From: Pseudomonadota bacterium
Lineage (GTDB): Bacteria > Pseudomonadota > Gammaproteobacteria > Xanthomonadales > Rhodanobacteraceae
Reading direction: 5' to 3'
DNA length: 42,530 nucleotides
NCBI GenBank assembly: GCA_021781425.1
Contig: JAJXWU010000205.1
Location: 1 to 42,530 of the forward strand
Of the stretch, positions 18,159 to 28,085 are shown one piece after another (the stretch's first letter is position 1; each line of letters starts with the position of its first letter). The notes beneath the pieces are model-generated. The model did no database searches and was not told the origin of the DNA. It worked only from the letters and a program-made list of their open reading frames with translations. Made by a program: the position numbers and the translations under genes.

Positions 18159-18674
18159 TCAGCCGCCCCAGCCGAAGGGCGATTGGCGGCTCGAAACACG
18201 GCCTTTGCCGGTGAAGAAAACCGAGCCACGTCCGATACCCGGATAGGCGTAGTACCAGACGCGGCGGCCGTCGATCATAAACTGGCGCGAAGGGGCGCCG
18301 AGCAACGTGGCCACCTCGTCCTGACTCATCGCCGGCCGGATCTGCGACCAGCGTTCCCTGAGCGCCTCTTCCGGGCTGACCTGGCCGGCCTGAAGCACCG
18401 CCGCCGGGGCGGCGGTAGTGGGTGGGACGGCAACAGCTGCCGCTGGGGCCGCCTGCGGCACGGGCGGTTGCGGGGCGGCAGGTGCCGGCGCGGCGGCGGC
18501 AATTGCCGCCAGCCGGTTCACCTGTTCCTGCAGCTGCACAACGAGGGTGCGCAGCGCGTCGACCTGCTCGCGCAGCGCCGCCTCCTCAGAAGAGGCGGCG
18601 TGCACGGGAGCAGCAGCCAGAGTCAGCGCCAATAGCAGCGCCCGGCATGCGGTGCCGTTAACGCGACGCCGCAT
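18159..18674 (-). CDS. periplasmic protein: signal peptide, coiled coil, Pro/Ala linker, C-terminal SmpA/BamE-like domain
   Basis: EEAALREQVDALRTLVVQLQEQVNRL coiled coil; WSQIRPAMSQDEVATLLGAPSRQFMIDGRRVWYYAYPG...GRV resembles SmpA/OmlA. Confidence 0.7.
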   Translation of the reverse strand: MRRRVNGTACRALLLALTLAAAPVHAASSEEAALREQVDALRTLVVQLQEQVNRLAAIAAAAPAPAAPQPPVPQAAPAAAVAVPPTTAAPAAVLQAGQVSPEEALRERWSQIRPAMSQDEVATLLGAPSRQFMIDGRRVWYYAYPGIGRGSVFFTGKGRVSSRQSPFGWGG

Positions 18675-19260
18675 AGGTAGCCACCGCTTTCATCTGCTCG
18701 GGCGTAAGTGTGCGCGCAACAGCCAGCATGATCGGCGCGTTGGAGCGCGTTCCCGACTTGAAGCCTTCCAACTGCGCGGCGAGATAGTCCACGTGCTGAC
18801 CGGCCAGCCGCGGAAATGCCTTGTCACCAAGCGCTTGTGCACCGTGACAAGTGGCGCAGGCTGGAACCCCTTGGGTCGGAATCCCTTTTGTATAGATTTT
18901 CTCTCCTTCGGCCATCAGCACCGGACTGCCCGGTTGGCCCGGTGCCGGCTTCTGCGCTGCGTAATAGGCGGCCAGGCCCTTGATTGTGTCGTCGCTCAAT
19001 TGCGAAGCCATGCCCCACATGTATGCCTGCGCATTCGGGTCGCCTCGCTGATGGTCGCGGAAGGCATAAAGCTGCAGCGTGATATAGGCAGGCTGCTGGC
19101 CGGCGAGGTTGGGGAATACCGGCGAAATGCTGTGCCCTTCGGGTCCATGGCACGCCGAACAAACGCCCTGGGTGAGCGAAGCTGGGTCCTGTTGTGCGAT
19201 GGCGGAGCCTGCGATCGCGGCTAATACCACCACTGCAGCCCCAGCGAGAAACTTGTTCAT
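18658..19260 (-). CDS. diheme cytochrome c (c4-like)
   Basis: Signal peptide; two CxxCH motifs (CSACH, CATCH); YMWGMASQLSDDTIKGLAAYYAAQ and PRLAGQHVDYLAAQL c4 signatures. Confidence 0.9.
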   Translation of the reverse strand: MNKFLAGAAVVVLAAIAGSAIAQQDPASLTQGVCSACHGPEGHSISPVFPNLAGQQPAYITLQLYAFRDHQRGDPNAQAYMWGMASQLSDDTIKGLAAYYAAQKPAPGQPGSPVLMAEGEKIYTKGIPTQGVPACATCHGAQALGDKAFPRLAGQHVDYLAAQLEGFKSGTRSNAPIMLAVARTLTPEQMKAVATYAASR

Positions 19261-19272
19261 GATCCTGACTCC

Positions 19273-20640
19273 TCAGAAGTTGATCCAGCCCAGCAGGTAC
19301 AGCGTGTTGTTGTCGCTCGCATTCCTGCCTGACCCGTCGTAGTTGGTACCACCGCCGTTGAACCTGCTGTAGTTCGTGTACTGCAGCGCCAATTTGGTGT
19401 TCTCGTATGGCACCCAGTCGAGCTCTGCCGTCCACCCCTTGGTGTCGGGCCGGCTGTTGCCGTAGCCGGAGAACAGCACCGGTGCGTACAGCAGGGCGTC
19501 GGCCGAACCGGTGGTCGAGAAGTAGCCGAGCGCGGCGCCATAGGTGCGGCGGAAGTAGTAGCTTGCGCCCAGCCGCAGCGTCTTCAGATTATCGCTCCGG
19601 TTGCTCGACGCTCCGGCGGCGAAAGAGGCATCCAGCGTCTGCGTCTCGCGGATGTAGGTGGCGGTGGCCGTGAACAAGTGGTCGTCTCCGATGTACTGGT
19701 ACTGCGAGTCCCCGGCCCAGTCACGGTAGCGATTGGTCGGCCCGGTCAGCGGTGCACCGCCACCGGGGTAAAGGTCGGCGTCAATACCGTAGGTGCCCAC
19801 CTCCCAGGACTGCCGGTCCCACTGCCGCTCGTAGGCCAGACGCCAGTAGGGCGCGTTGGCGTTGACGACGCTCTTGCTCGTGCTATCGATGACCGCCGCG
19901 GCCGGCGCCGAGCGGTAGGCCCCGAGCTCGGCATAAAAGGCATTGTCCCAGGAAGCGTACGCGCTCAGGCCGGCGACGCCGGCGCCTACGAGGCCGCCGT
20001 CTATCATCGTGGTCGCGCCCGCCGAGGGCGCAGTCGAACTGCGCTGGTCGAACGGCGTCTGCCACGCCGGCGTGCTGTTCCACAAGTCCTGCACGGTGGG
20101 ATTGTTGTTGAAGCTCATGCCCCAAAGGAAATGGTCATTCACCATCTTCGCATAGCGGATGTCGGTGTTGTCCCAGCCGAACGATCCGGCCGTGCCGTCG
20201 TAGGTCATCTGTATGAAAGCACCCAGATTCGGCGCGATGCGCCCAGCGTAGAACAGGCTCGCCTGCTGCGGGAACAGCACCTGGCCATTCTTGGCCTGTG
20301 CATCGGGTACGCCGGAATCGGGAACGGCTTTTTGGGTTTGCGAGTACGAGGTCTGGAACATCATCGACAGCGGCGGCAGCTGATTGAGCAACAATGTTTG
20401 TTCTTTGCTTGTGTTCGTGCCGCTGACCTGCTGCAGGTTGTCAATCGTGTAGCCATTGAGCTTGAACCGACGACCGAAGGGCGTCAGCTCGGGAAAGACC
20501 GTGTGGCAAGCCTCGCAGGCCATCCCGGTCTGGCGGGCGAAGCTCGGCACAGCCCGTGCGCTGCCCGGGGCCAGCAGCAGTGCGCCACATGCCACCGCCA
20601 GCAACGCGAGGAATGATCCGCATTTGCTCTGCATCTTCAT
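19273..20640 (-). CDS. Cyc2-like outer-membrane protein: N-terminal monoheme CxxCH segment fused to a beta-barrel
   Basis: 455 aa; signal peptide; PSFARQTGMACEACHTVFPELTPFGRRFKLNGY; then alternating barrel-type strands, ending in aromatic F (LYLLGWINF). Confidence 0.8.
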   Translation of the reverse strand: MKMQSKCGSFLALLAVACGALLLAPGSARAVPSFARQTGMACEACHTVFPELTPFGRRFKLNGYTIDNLQQVSGTNTSKEQTLLLNQLPPLSMMFQTSYSQTQKAVPDSGVPDAQAKNGQVLFPQQASLFYAGRIAPNLGAFIQMTYDGTAGSFGWDNTDIRYAKMVNDHFLWGMSFNNNPTVQDLWNSTPAWQTPFDQRSSTAPSAGATTMIDGGLVGAGVAGLSAYASWDNAFYAELGAYRSAPAAAVIDSTSKSVVNANAPYWRLAYERQWDRQSWEVGTYGIDADLYPGGGAPLTGPTNRYRDWAGDSQYQYIGDDHLFTATATYIRETQTLDASFAAGASSNRSDNLKTLRLGASYYFRRTYGAALGYFSTTGSADALLYAPVLFSGYGNSRPDTKGWTAELDWVPYENTKLALQYTNYSRFNGGGTNYDGSGRNASDNNTLYLLGWINF

Positions 20641-20748: not shown

Positions 20749-22143
20749 ATGTCAACCCATGCCACCTTCGACCCCGGCCTTATCGCGCGCTACGACGTGA
20801 ACGGTCCGCGCTACACCTCCTACCCGGCCGCGCCACAGTTTCACGCCGGATTCGGCGAGATGCAACTGCGCGCTGCCGCGCTCGCCTCCAACGACGATCC
20901 GATTCCGCGGCCGCTGTCGCTGTACGTGCATATTCCATTTTGCCTGAGTCCGTGCTTCTACTGCGGCTGCACGCGCCTCATCACCCGCGACAAGGGCAGG
21001 ACGCCGATCTACCTGCAGCGCCTGCACCGCGAGATCGAGCTGACCGCGCCGCTGTTCGACCGCGACCGGCCCGTGTTGCAACTGCACTTCGGCGGCGGCA
21101 CGCCGAATTTTCTTGATCCGGCGCAGATGGCCGAACTGCTCGAATCGCTGGCTCAGCATTTTTCCTTCAGCCGCGATGCACGGCGCGAATTCGGCATCGA
21201 ACTCGACCCGCGCTTCTGCGACGCTGCCTATGTGCGCGCATTGGCCCCGCTCGGCTTCAATCGCGTCTCGGTCGGCATCCAGGACTTCGATCCCGAGGTG
21301 CAGGCGGCGGTGAACCGAATCCAAAGTGTGGCGCAAACGCGCGCGGTGCTCGATGCGGCGCGGGAAGCGGGATTCCGCTCGGCGAGCGTGGACCTGATCT
21401 ACGGTTTGCCGAAGCAAACCTTGAGCGGCTTTGCACGCACGCTCGACGAGGTGATTGCACTGGCGCCTGACCGCATCGCCGCCTACGCCTACGCGCACCT
21501 GCCGGAACGCTTCAAGGCGCAGCGCCAGATCCACGCCGCCGACCTGCCGGATGCGGCCGGGCGTCTGAACCTGCTCGGCCTGACGGTGGAAAAGCTGACG
21601 CAAGCCGGCTATCGCTACATCGGCATGGATCACTTCGCGCGCGCGGACGACGAATTGGCGCGCGCGCAGGACGCTGGCACCCTGCAGCGCAATTTCCAGG
21701 GCTACTCCACCCACGGCGGCTGCGATCTGATCGGCCTGGGCATGAGCGCGATCTCGCACGTCGGCGCGAGCTTCAGCCAGAACGCACGCGCGCTGCCCGG
21801 CTATTACGCCGCGCTCGACACCGGTCGCCTGCCGACCGCGCGCGGGCTGGCGCTGAGCGAGGACGACCTGATCCGCGCCGATGCGATCACGCAACTCATG
21901 TGCCACGGCGCGCTCGACATCGCCGCGTTGCAGACGCGCCATCGCCTGGACTTCGGCTTGTACTTCGCGGCGGAACTGCAGCGCCTGGCACGGCTGGAAA
22001 ACGACGGTTTGATCCGGATCGCGCCGGAGGCCCTGCGTGTCACTCCGCGCGGCCGCTTCCTGCTGCGCAATATCGCCATGTGTTTCGACGCCTACCTCGC
22101 GCACGAGGCCGCACCTGCGGTACGCTATTCGCGAACCCTGTAA
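20749..22143 (+). CDS. hemN: oxygen-independent coproporphyrinogen III oxidase
   Basis: HIPFCLSPCFYCGCTR radical SAM motif; YNGPRYTSYP-like N-terminus; HFGGGTPNF; GYSTHGGCDLIGLGMSAISH. Confidence 0.95.
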   Translation: MSTHATFDPGLIARYDVNGPRYTSYPAAPQFHAGFGEMQLRAAALASNDDPIPRPLSLYVHIPFCLSPCFYCGCTRLITRDKGRTPIYLQRLHREIELTAPLFDRDRPVLQLHFGGGTPNFLDPAQMAELLESLAQHFSFSRDARREFGIELDPRFCDAAYVRALAPLGFNRVSVGIQDFDPEVQAAVNRIQSVAQTRAVLDAAREAGFRSASVDLIYGLPKQTLSGFARTLDEVIALAPDRIAAYAYAHLPERFKAQRQIHAADLPDAAGRLNLLGLTVEKLTQAGYRYIGMDHFARADDELARAQDAGTLQRNFQGYSTHGGCDLIGLGMSAISHVGASFSQNARALPGYYAALDTGRLPTARGLALSEDDLIRADAITQLMCHGALDIAALQTRHRLDFGLYFAAELQRLARLENDGLIRIAPEALRVTPRGRFLLRNIAMCFDAYLAHEAAPAVRYSRTL

Positions 22144-22175
22144 CCCGGCCACCCGCCGGGCGGCCGGACACGCGC

Positions 22176-22934
22176 ATGACCCAATGGTCCCAACGCGGCA
22201 GGTTGCTGCCGCAGAATTCGATCGCCGACGACGGCGACGAAGTGCATTTCTGCTCGACCTGTGCGTTCGGCTCGGCCTGTCTGCCGGCCGGTCTGGACAA
22301 GACCGCGCTGAACGAATTGCACATGCTGGTCGGACACGTCGGCCCGTTCCACGACGGCGACATCGTGTTCCGCAGCGGCGAACGCTTCGGCGCAGTGTTC
22401 GCGGTGCGCGCCGGCATGGTCAAGACGCGCCAGCTCGACGACGAGGGCCATGAGCAGGTGCTTGGCTTTCATCTGCCCGGCGAGATGATCGGACTGGACG
22501 CGATCCATCCGGCGAAGTATCCCTGCGATGCGATCGCGCTGGATACGGTGTTCGTGTGCCGCTTTTCGTTTCCTGCTCTGTCCACTCTCGCAACGAAGAT
22601 CCCGGATGTGCAAGGACGCCTGTTCGATCTGCTCAGCGCCGACATCGGCAAGTCCGCCCGCTATTCCGGCGACCACGCGGCGGACGAGCGCCTCGCTGCC
22701 TTTTTGCTCGATCTGAGCGGCCGCTACGCCGCGCGCGGCTTTGCGCCGAATGCGTTCCGCCTGGTCATGCCACGCGCCGACATCGCCAATTTCCTGCGTC
22801 TGGCCGCCGAAACGGTGAGCCGCGTGCTACGCCGTTTCCAGGATCAGAACCTGATCCGCGTCGACGGCCGCGAGGTAGAGCTGACCGACAAGGCCGCGCT
22901 GCACAAGCTCGCACGGCATATCCTGCGCGATTGA
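22176..22934 (+). CDS. fnr: FNR/Anr-type Crp-family oxygen-responsive regulator
   Basis: CSTCAFGSAC (Cx2Cx5C) plus downstream Cys; cNMP-binding-like domain; MPRADIANFLRLAAETVSRVLRRFQ HTH. Confidence 0.93.
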   Translation: MTQWSQRGRLLPQNSIADDGDEVHFCSTCAFGSACLPAGLDKTALNELHMLVGHVGPFHDGDIVFRSGERFGAVFAVRAGMVKTRQLDDEGHEQVLGFHLPGEMIGLDAIHPAKYPCDAIALDTVFVCRFSFPALSTLATKIPDVQGRLFDLLSADIGKSARYSGDHAADERLAAFLLDLSGRYAARGFAPNAFRLVMPRADIANFLRLAAETVSRVLRRFQDQNLIRVDGREVELTDKAALHKLARHILRD

Positions 22935-24364: not shown

Positions 24365-24772
24365 TCAAGCCGGGGAAACATCCGACCCCGCCGCGGCGGC
24401 TTTGCCGGCAGAGTCGGCCTCCAGTGCAGCGTTCAATTCCGCAATCAGCACCCGTGCCTGATCGCGCAGCGCCGCGTAGGCGGGCTCCCACTGCTCCGGC
24501 CGCGGCGCAGCGAGTCCGAAACGCTGCAAGCGCGATGCCGCCGAGCGCAGTTGCGCGCGCAGACGCGTGATTTCGGCGAGCGCCGCATCGTGCTCGTCCT
24601 TGCCGATGAGCAGCACCTTGCGGTCGCGGCACACGCCGATGCACGGTTGCGGTGCCTCGATCCTGCCGCAGCCGATGCATTGCCATGCCTGGATATATTC
24701 GGCCACGCGCGTCTCTCCTGCCAGGCCGTGAGCATGCGCTGTCGCAGTCGGTGTCGCGTTGATCGCGGTCAA
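24365..24772 (-). CDS. hypothetical protein with Cys-containing (zinc-ribbon-like) N-terminus and coiled coil
   Basis: WQCIGCGRIEAPQPCIGVCRDRK followed by predicted coiled coil; only plausible long frame here. Confidence 0.6.
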   Translation of the reverse strand: MTAINATPTATAHAHGLAGETRVAEYIQAWQCIGCGRIEAPQPCIGVCRDRKVLLIGKDEHDAALAEITRLRAQLRSAASRLQRFGLAAPRPEQWEPAYAALRDQARVLIAELNAALEADSAGKAAAAGSDVSPA

Positions 24773-24852: not shown

Positions 24853-25257
24853 ATGCTCGAGCTCTATCCGCAGATCAAACTGATCCACATCGCTTGCGTC
24901 GTCCTCTCCGGCAGCCTGTTCGCGCTGCGCGGAACGATCCTGATTCTGGCCGGATCGCAATGGGTCCATCACCCGATCGTGCGTCGCACGACGTACCTGA
25001 TCGACACCACCCTGCTGGCCGCCGGCATCGCACTCGCCGCGATGCTGCACCAGTATCCGTTCGTGCAAGCCTGGCTCACCGCCAAGGTGCTGCTGCTCGT
25101 GGTCTACATCGTGCTCGGCGTGTTCGCCCTGCGCCGCGGACGCACGCGCGGCAGCCGCGCCGGATTCTTCTTTGCCGCGCTCGCGGTGTACCTGTTCATC
25201 GCGAGCATCGCGATTGCGCACGATCCGCGCGGCCTATTCACGCGGTTCGTGCGCTGA
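24853..25257 (+). CDS. SirB2-family membrane protein
   Basis: YPQIKLIHIACVVLSGSLFALRG...; four hydrophobic helices; SirB2-like. Confidence 0.85.
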   Translation: MLELYPQIKLIHIACVVLSGSLFALRGTILILAGSQWVHHPIVRRTTYLIDTTLLAAGIALAAMLHQYPFVQAWLTAKVLLLVVYIVLGVFALRRGRTRGSRAGFFFAALAVYLFIASIAIAHDPRGLFTRFVR

Positions 25258-25266
25258 TGCGCGCGA

Positions 25267-26478
25267 TCAGAATTTGTATTCCAGGCCGGCCCAGATCTTG
25301 CGCTCGTCGGTGCTGAAGCCGTCGCTGCGGTAATCGGCAAGCTTGAGCAATCCGGTCACGCATGCGGCTAACGGATAGGTCAGCATGGCGTCGAATTCAG
25401 CGCCGTAGGCGCGTCCGCCGCGGTCGGCGTGGAAATCGTGCCAGACGGCCGTCCACGCCGCCTTGCCAAAATTGCCGTTGGCGCCGATGTAGCGGTCGTC
25501 GATGCCGTCGAGCGGGGTTGTCAGAAAACGGTCGGCCCAGCCGTCGAAAGCGTGCAAGGTCGCGTAAGGCGTGGCGAAGCCGTAGCGCCCGTTGCCACCC
25601 ATTATTTCGTCGCCGGCCTTGAAGGTGATGCCACGCCACGTCAATGCCGGTTCGATCAGGCGGTAATCGGCGCTTTGCGAGGCCGGATTGTTGGCATAGC
25701 CATTCTGGTGCGCATATTCCAGCGTCCAGCCGAACTTCCAGTCGCCGTTTGCATGCGCTCCTGCCCAACGCGCACCGACGGTTTTCGTCGACAGGGTGGC
25801 TACGCTGTCGTTCTCGACCAGATAGGCGTAGCCGGTCATGGTTCCTACCGGCGTCGCCTGGCTCAGATTGAACAGATTCCCTTGCAGATCCCAGGCACGC
25901 AGCAGCGCATTGGGATTGGCGTTGCCGAACACGCGCTGCACGCGATCGAGGTACGCGTAGCGCACGACCGGACCGTCGCCGCCGAAGCCGTAGCGCAGCG
26001 ACAGCGCATCGAAGGTCTGCTCGTTCTGGCGCCAGCCGGAATTGCCGAAGAAGCGCTGGTTGTCGAAAGCCACGATCTGCCGCCCGAGCGCGGCATCAAG
26101 TCCGCCATCCGCATAACCGACGTAGGCCTCGTGGAATTCGCTGGATTGCGGATCGGCGACGATCGGATACTGCGTCTTGCCGTTCGCGGTGCTGTTGTAG
26201 TCGGCGCCGACCAGCGCCTGTACGCGATCGCCGGAAGCGACCAGCCGCCAGCCCGGCGCGAACGCCCAGCGGTAGCCGAGGCGCAGGCGCACGGTGTTGG
26301 CATCGGCATTCTTGGCGAACGCGGCGTCATCGACGCCTTCGTACCGGTAGCGCAATTCCACGATTGGCTTGTTCTGCTCCACGGCTTGCGTGGCCGCCAC
26401 CGGCGGTGCGGCGGCGGTTAATGCCAGGATCAGGAAAAGATACGGCGCCCCGAGGCGCGAGCATCGGCGGGAATGCAT
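25267..26478 (-). CDS. outer-membrane porin (alginate-export/OprE-like barrel)
   Basis: Start at MHSRRCSRLG; signal peptide; IVELRYRYEGVDDAAFAKNADANTVRLRLGYRWAFAPGW; C-terminal LEYKF. Confidence 0.8.
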   Translation of the reverse strand: MHSRRCSRLGAPYLFLILALTAAAPPVAATQAVEQNKPIVELRYRYEGVDDAAFAKNADANTVRLRLGYRWAFAPGWRLVASGDRVQALVGADYNSTANGKTQYPIVADPQSSEFHEAYVGYADGGLDAALGRQIVAFDNQRFFGNSGWRQNEQTFDALSLRYGFGGDGPVVRYAYLDRVQRVFGNANPNALLRAWDLQGNLFNLSQATPVGTMTGYAYLVENDSVATLSTKTVGARWAGAHANGDWKFGWTLEYAHQNGYANNPASQSADYRLIEPALTWRGITFKAGDEIMGGNGRYGFATPYATLHAFDGWADRFLTTPLDGIDDRYIGANGNFGKAAWTAVWHDFHADRGGRAYGAEFDAMLTYPLAACVTGLLKLADYRSDGFSTDERKIWAGLEYKF

Positions 26479-26544
26479 GATGTGTTCTCCGATTGCATGA
26501 CGTTGGATTCGGGTGCAATCTGCAACCGGTTTTTTCCTTCGGCC

Positions 26545-26558
26545 TTGACCGGGATCAA
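26545..26558. promoter_or_regulatory. FNR/Anr-type box (porin-proximal)
   Basis: TTGACCGGGATCAA, 9/10 match to TTGAT-N4-ATCAA. Confidence 0.75.
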
Positions 26559-26593
26559 GAACGTCTGCGATGTGCCGATGCATGCCGCATCGC

Positions 26594-26607
26594 TTGATTC
26601 CGATCAA
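26594..26607. promoter_or_regulatory. FNR/Anr-type box (nirK-proximal), perfect consensus
   Basis: TTGATTCCGATCAA, 10/10 match. Confidence 0.85.
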
Positions 26608-26669
26608 GGTTGTCGCACCATCCGCTTTCGACAATGCGCGCATCGTTCGACTACAGCGGAGAAGCCATC

Positions 26670-28085
26670 ATGAAAACGTCCAATGCCATCATTGCGTGCA
26701 TCGCACTGACCGCTGCCGGCTTCGGTGTGCCGTCGCATGCGGCAGCGGCTGCGGCAGCGCCGGGCTCCGGCACGCGGATCGAGGAAAAGCTGGTGGCTCC
26801 GCCGAACGTGCCGCCGCCGATCCACCGCGACCAGCCGGCGCGCGTAGTCGTGCACCTGGAGACGCGCGAAGTCGTCAAGGAAATCGCCGACGGTGTGCGT
26901 TACGATTTCTGGACTTTCAACGGCAGCGTGCCCGGTCCGCTGATCCGCGTGCGCGAAGGCGACACCGTCGAGTTGCACCTGCGCAACGACCCCAGCTCGC
27001 ACATGGCGCACAACATCGACCTGCACGCGGTCATGGGGCCGGGTGGCGGCGCCGCCGCCACCGTCACGCCTCCCGGCCACGAGAGCGTGTTCGCGTTCAA
27101 GGCCATGCGCGCCGGCCTGTTCGTCTACCACTGCGCCACCGCGCCGGTGCCGATGCACATCGCCAACGGCATGTACGGAATGATCCTGGTGGAACCGCCG
27201 CAGGGACTGCCCAGGGCCGACAAGGAGTACTACGTGATGCAGGGCGATTTCTACACCGCCGGCGCCTATCACGAGCCGGGCCAGCAAGCCTTCGACATGC
27301 AGAAACTGCTGCTGGAGCAGCCGACCTACGTGCTCTTCAACGGCCGCGAAGGATCGCTCAGCGGCGACAGCGCGCTGACCTCCAAAGTCGGCGACACCGT
27401 GCGTCTGTTTGTCGGCGATGGCGGACCGAACCTGGCGTCGAGTTTCCACGTCATCGGCCAGATCTTCGACGACGTCGCCATCGAGGGCGGCAGTCTGGTC
27501 AATCACAACGTGCAGACCACGCTGATCCCGGCCGGTGGGGCGACGATGGTCGACCTCAAGACCCTGGTGCCCGGAACATTCCTGCTGGTGGACCATTCCA
27601 TCACCCGCGCCTTCATGCAGGGCGCGCTGGGCGAACTCAAGGTAGCCGGCGCCGCGCAACCGGCGTTGTACGAGAAGATTTCCAGCGGCCCGATCCCCGG
27701 CGCCGCGGTGGCCGCAAGCGCCCCCGCCGTCACCGCCTCGCGCGATGCAACGGCCGAGGGCAAACGCGTGTTCACGCAGATCTGTTCCGCCTGCCATCAA
27801 GGCAATGCGATGGGTCTGCCCGGCGCGTTTCCGCCGCTGGCGATGTCCGATTACCTCAACGCCGATCCGCACCGCGCCATCGGCATCGTGCTGCATGGCT
27901 TGAGCGGCAAGATTACCGTGAACAGCACCGGCTACGAAAACGTCATGCCTGCGCTGGGCGGGCAGCTGAGCGACGCCGAGATCGCCAACGTGTTGACCTA
28001 TGTGCTCAACAATTTCAACAACCAGGGCGGCACGATCAGTACCGATCAGGTCAAGGCGGTGCGCACCCGGGGTCAGCAACCCTGA
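26670..28085 (+). CDS. nirK: copper-containing nitrite reductase with C-terminal cytochrome c domain
   Basis: [47 protein letters not shown]-terminal [19 protein letters not shown] heme c domain. Confidence 0.96.

Follow-up and report, generated by a model that had tools for sequence, protein, structure and literature searches.

The 42,530-nucleotide stretch of Rhodanobacteraceae DNA analysed here (the window) carries an operon for a Cyc2-type cytochrome-porin, a diheme cytochrome c4 and a BamE-like periplasmic protein, and upstream of it an FNR-type operator that recurs at many relatives of the cyc2 gene. We consider it rather probable that the operon encodes a Cyc2 conduit induced under anoxic conditions, which would pass electrons, most likely derived from Fe(II), via cytochrome c4 to denitrification, a substrate and a direction that we infer. 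Cyc2 itself and the pairing of cyc2 with c4 are of a known kind. What appears to be new is the BamE-like companion and, for this Cyc2 subfamily, control of the FNR type; a search of the mostly open-access literature yielded no description of FNR control of cyc2 or of a BamE-like partner. The preliminary description of this DNA had recognised the three genes but not the FNR-type operator, the neighbouring fnr gene or nirK elsewhere in the window, all of which argue for a role under anoxia that is tied to denitrification. The features are listed in Table 1.

Table 1. Coordinates of the operon and of the associated genes and FNR-type boxes in the window.
Feature	Position	Strand	Remarks
cyc2-like gene, cytochrome-porin	20640-19273	minus	455 aa; putative signal peptide, a single heme site near the N-terminus (CEACH), predicted 16-strand barrel
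Diheme cytochrome c4 gene (putative Cyc1-like periplasmic partner)	19260-18658	minus	200 aa, two CXXCH
Gene of BamE/SmpA-fold periplasmic protein (predicted fold)	18674-18159	minus	171 aa; coiled coil, Ala/Pro-rich linker, BamE-like domain
FNR-type operator TTGAT-GCAA-GTCAA	20701..20714		one mismatch; between cyc2 and hemN
hemN, oxygen-independent coproporphyrinogen III oxidase, divergent from cyc2	20749..22143	+	TIGR00538, 548.7 bits
FNR-type regulator gene	22161..22934, likely start near 22176	+	CSTCAFGSAC, ETVSR; Pfam HTH_Crp_2 and cNMP_binding over cut-off
Perfect FNR-type box upstream of nirK	26594..26607		no mismatch
Second FNR-type box upstream of nirK	26545..26558		one mismatch
nirK, copper nitrite reductase with fused C-terminal cytochrome c domain	26670..28085	+	TIGR02376 353.1 bits, cut-off 296.3; Cytochrom_C

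The two partner genes lie, as had been described before, downstream of cyc2 on the same strand; all three genes are on the minus strand. According to the ORF coordinates, a gap of 12 nt separates cyc2 from c4 and the c4 and BamE-like genes overlap by 17 nt, which is compatible with a single transcript for the three genes. The same gene order was found in up to ten loci of other species. Among the collected loci, cyc2 is adjoined by c4 in 28, with c4 directly 3' of cyc2, and all matches to the BamE-like protein (16/16) are encoded directly downstream of cyc2 or c4, four of them in loci without c4; taken together, this linkage goes far beyond chance. Homologues of cyc2 are present in 145 of the 234 genomes of the window's family; the order-level sample around G192 consisted of four genomes only.

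By its sequence, the 455-aa protein is a Cyc2. Members of this family were reported to carry the motif AXPXFAR[Q/K][T/Y] before a single CXXCH and PXL after it, to comprise at least 365 aa and to form a 16-strand porin (PMC8406198). The heme segment of the window protein, AVPSFARQTGMACEACHTVFPELTPFGRRFKLNGY, contains the motif string AVPSFARQT-GMA-CEACH-TVF-PEL, in which AVPSFARQT precedes CEACH, the only CXXCH of the protein, and PEL lies four residues downstream; by eye, the N-terminus is a hydrophobic leader ending in ARA. Seventeen relatives from public genomes (46-91% identity) share with it the heme site and, towards the C-terminus, a YDG.GRNASDNNTLY block, and A30, P32, R36-QTG, C42, C45-H46 and P50-E-L-T are kept by all relatives in the 18-row alignment. 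The protein matched nothing in Pfam or NCBIfam, neither of which has a Cyc2 model, and sequence searches of the PDB returned no relative. In the AlphaFold2 model (18 sequences; mean pLDDT 61.6, pTM 0.69) 16 strands follow short N-terminal helices, and Foldseek matched the model to 16-strand general porins (best E 3e-10). Of the barrel with an N-terminal heme segment that had been expected from the preliminary description, the model thus reproduces the 16-strand barrel with modest confidence and the heme segment itself poorly, while the identification as Cyc2 is backed by motif, length, barrel prediction and tree. Among the homologues, three of the window's clade (L012, L013, L014) lie on separate contigs of one MAG (REEB109), two with 46% identity (L016, L017) come from Campylobacterales MAGs labelled LacPavin, and that of congener G008 (L089) is broken across two frames and is probably a pseudogene or a sequencing error.

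The placement within the family was anchored on a canonical Cyc2, L102 of genome G322, whose rus operon was recognised from its gene order. A rusticyanin search over the class detected there a gene that scored 137 bits, just under the cut-off of 146.7. This rusticyanin-like gene and cyc2 share a strand and are 7 kb apart, and the genes in between look like those for a small cupredoxin-like protein (judged by eye), CoxB, CoxA (confirmed), a further cox subunit, CtaA and CtaB. The rus-operon layout of Acidihalobacter (PMC10654088) matches this operon, except that no c4 gene follows cyc2 in G322. The window Cyc2 is 38.9% identical to L102 over the full length. In the tree, a 68-row group of full-length sequences is split from remoter Cyc2-like proteins with an SH-aLRT support of 100%, and the window Cyc2 falls together with the rus-operon sequence into a 29-row group with a support of 94, in a quick tree with flagged long branches. 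The protein was therefore placed, as had been proposed, within the Cyc2 group and in one clade with L102, an anchor from which it is probably of the 'Cluster 2' type. Its general architecture and heme-segment signature are common also to Cluster 1 of the neutrophilic iron oxidisers (Mariprofundus, Gallionellaceae), whereas Cyc2-like proteins with CHFQHFP-type heme segments match it in the N-terminal part only.

Like the rus operons of Acidithiobacillus, Acidihalobacter and Acidiferrobacter, the window locus encodes a cytochrome-porin fusion with one heme and, after it, a diheme c4. The latter scored over the cut-offs of both Pfam Cytochrom_C and Cytochrome_CBB3, its two heme domains align with 1h1o, 6q2u and 1etp over residues about 30-199, and its nearest solved structure in the PDB is 1h1o (E 6.8e-38), which is the cytochrome c4 from the iron respiratory chain of Acidithiobacillus. 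Unlike the rus operon, the window locus is without cup, cox and rusticyanin genes, none of which is in the gene list of the window (a rusticyanin match was also not found in its assembly, G000), and has the BamE-like gene, the divergent hemN-fnr genes and the FNR-type box. For A. ferrooxidans, control of the rus operon by RegBA and Fe(II)-regulated promoters have been reported (PMC5506826). A different set of partners was seen in congener G437, where cyc2 (L145) is followed by a monoheme cytochrome and then by a NapC/NirT-like tetraheme cytochrome that might provide a connection to the quinone pool; the homologue of Caballeronia is paired with a HiPIP and that of Methylocystis with three c cytochromes.

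The third protein of the operon matched Pfam BamE with 24.0 bits (cut-off 23.2), and its BamE-like domain was modelled with a pLDDT of 93-97, the top Foldseek match being Neisseria BamE (E 6e-4). It resembles the BamE/SmpA lipoprotein of the barrel assembly machine in its predicted fold, but by eye it has an apparent type I signal peptide and no lipobox cysteine, it carries an extra coiled coil and an Ala/Pro linker, and in the examined loci it is linked exclusively to cyc2. No heme or other cofactor motif was found in it, and the possibility of an electron carrier was dropped for this reason. The missing cofactor motif and the BamE fold make an accessory for assembly or scaffolding more likely, and the protein probably aids in assembling or positioning the heme-carrying barrel. 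Of the three-gene conduit suggested earlier, the cyc2-c4 pair, which is like the cyc2-cyc1 pair of rus operons, was retained, but not the BamE-like member.

The operator in the cyc2/hemN-fnr intergenic region, TTGATGCAAGTCAA, deviates in one position from the FNR consensus TTGAT-N4-ATCAA, and the window contains five sites within one mismatch of this consensus where 0.43 are expected. In the neighbouring regulator, CSTCAFGSAC has the spacing of the 4Fe-4S ligands of FNR and ETVSR represents the recognition helix; against the Fnr model NF008365 the protein reached 194.7 bits, under the curated cut-off of 228. A box with at most one mismatch was detected upstream of 33 of 67 Cyc2 relatives and a perfect box upstream of 12, compared with 1.1 and 0.025 expected from simulated sequence. 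Control genes of the same loci have a box in 40 of 669 cases (Fisher 5.5e-19), and the difference persists (1.6e-15) once the five loci with divergent hemN are removed. Since the pattern was first noticed in this set, a hold-out of 39 further Cyc2 relatives was drawn from the window's family, in which 28 genes have a box, 12 of them a perfect one (0.33 expected). No box within one mismatch was detected at 11 of the 39 hold-out relatives or at roughly half of those in the first set. The same family of genomes contains another Cyc2-like subfamily, whose heme site is CADCH (L203-L222); none of its 20 examined members has a box, and the remote CHFQHFP-type group is mostly without one (2/22 have a box).

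The gene hemN adjoins cyc2 also in L002, L003, L005 and L010 and lies nearby in L097, and the box could partly serve hemN in five loci; FNR-like regulators are adjacent in several distant loci. A -10-like hexamer about 21-22 nt past the box scores at least 5 in 30% of cases on the cyc2 side, 9% on the other side and 4% at random, and this bias fits an activation of cyc2, so that the cyc2 box may be that of a class II promoter. The consensus is compatible with both O2-sensing FNR and NO-sensing DNR and does not separate them. The recurrence of a low-oxygen, FNR-type control site among the relatives of the window operon suggests that this branch functions while nitrate or nitrite is respired and not under air. 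A further FNR-type box of the window (24759-24772) lies beside a gene for a SirB2-like membrane protein (24853-25257, plus strand).

Denitrification genes are found in the neighbourhood of cyc2 as well. In the window, nirK is preceded by two FNR-type boxes; it lies back to back with an alginate-export-like outer-membrane barrel gene (25267-26643, minus strand). In congener G436, nirK and a norB gene, probably of the qNor type, are divergent from cyc2-c4 with a perfect box in between; this probable NorB was assigned by a match to the heme-copper oxidase family (PF00115) and the look of its N-terminus, NCBIfam giving no name. Apart from the window, nirK was seen within about 6 kb of cyc2 in a single congener. 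The sister genome G435 (its contig with cyc2 matches L002) has a full-length narG, but no narG was found in the window's own assembly. This assembly, in which the window is contig C27, is a fragmented MAG of 2.65 Mb in 265 contigs (90% complete, 5.7% contaminated), and absences from it are weak evidence. RuBisCO was not found in it and is present in 2 of 16 congeners, which argues for mixotrophy, and a mixotrophic rather than an autotrophic host is probable. Heme-copper oxidases were likewise not found in the MAG but are present in 14 of the 16 congeners, including all seven well-assembled ones; their absence is thus likely an assembly gap, and a strict denitrifier without heme-copper oxidase was dropped as a description of the host.

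We propose that, when oxygen runs out, the neighbouring FNR would activate the cyc2 operon from the conserved box. At the cell surface, the 16-strand barrel would then accept electrons from a donor, which is most likely Fe(II); the N-terminal heme domain would sit at the periplasmic mouth of the barrel, and the Cyc2 heme would hand the electrons to the diheme cytochrome c4, from which they could reach NirK and related denitrification enzymes through the periplasmic c pool. HemN would supply heme without oxygen, and the BamE-fold protein would probably aid the assembly or positioning of the heme-carrying barrel. The whole Cyc2 subfamily, which is widespread in the window's family and also in betaproteobacteria that are not known to oxidise iron, might also be dedicated to anoxic electron uptake, controlled by FNR-type regulators and coupled to denitrification via a c4 shuttle, with one branch adding the BamE-like assembly factor; this extension is tentative, and we would put it at somewhat below even chances.

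The same proteins could also work as an ordinary aerobic or microaerobic Cluster 2 Fe(II) oxidase, as in Acidithiobacillus ferrooxidans, with c4 delivering electrons to a cytochrome oxidase and the FNR box providing low-oxygen tuning, for example during microaerobic growth. The rus-operon Cyc2 belongs to the same family and has the same type of c4 partner, and the oxidases of the congeners, together with the probable assembly gap in the MAG, would provide the terminal enzyme. However, cup, cox and rus genes are not beside cyc2 in the window, and the conserved FNR-type boxes and the nearby fnr, hemN and nirK genes point to anoxia, and we regard aerobic or microaerobic iron oxidation as a rather unlikely function of this operon.

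That the donor is something other than Fe(II), such as reduced humics, Mn(II) or electrodes, or that electrons are disposed of outward under anoxia, seems unlikely to us. The authors of the Cyc2 survey call the functions of Clusters 2 and 3 unverified and possibly different (PMC8406198), homologues occur in many soil genera and in most genomes of the window's family, and the homologue is paired with a HiPIP in Caballeronia and with three c cytochromes in Methylocystis; yet the Cyc2 members with demonstrated activity in the cited literature oxidise Fe(II). An anaerobically induced porin for nitrate, nitrite or another anion, in which the heme would be structural or sensory, would agree with FNR-type control and with the report that phosphate-selective porins are structurally closest to the Cyc2 barrel (PMC8406198), but the dedicated diheme c4 that follows cyc2 in 28 loci and the invariant residues of the heme site make such a role very improbable. 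The anoxic, denitrification-linked conduit is the reading that we prefer.

The proposed anoxic conduit bears on a dispute about Rhodanobacter and other denitrifiers, in which Fe(II) oxidation is ascribed either to enzymes or solely to nitrite chemistry. For nitrate-reducing cultures, a model has been proposed in which Rhodanobacter oxidises Fe(II) mixotrophically (PMC12622760), and Cyc2-like proteins have been detected in Rhodanobacter, although an isolate from culture KS reportedly did not oxidise Fe(II) alone (PMC11366258), an observation that counts against an anoxic conduit fed by Fe(II). The window is similar to the Rhodanobacter of nitrate-reducing, Fe(II)-oxidising cultures in that a Cyc2-like protein occurs in a denitrifier (PMC12622760, PMC11366258), whereas these reports concern gene presence, with no mention of FNR control, a c4-BamE operon or adjacency to nirK and norB. 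The conserved low-oxygen operator at this Cyc2 subfamily provides a precise, testable condition, namely anoxia with nitrate or nitrite, and c4, NirK and the BamE-like protein are named as likely partners. The operator also bears on the Cyc2 homologues outside the known iron oxidisers, most of which lack an assigned function. Genes similar to cyc2 are further located on a plasmid of Acidithiobacillus ferrooxidans, with a transposase beside, and on a Caballeronia megaplasmid in the order HiPIP-cyc2-c4 (L038, L039), a location that suggests mobility.
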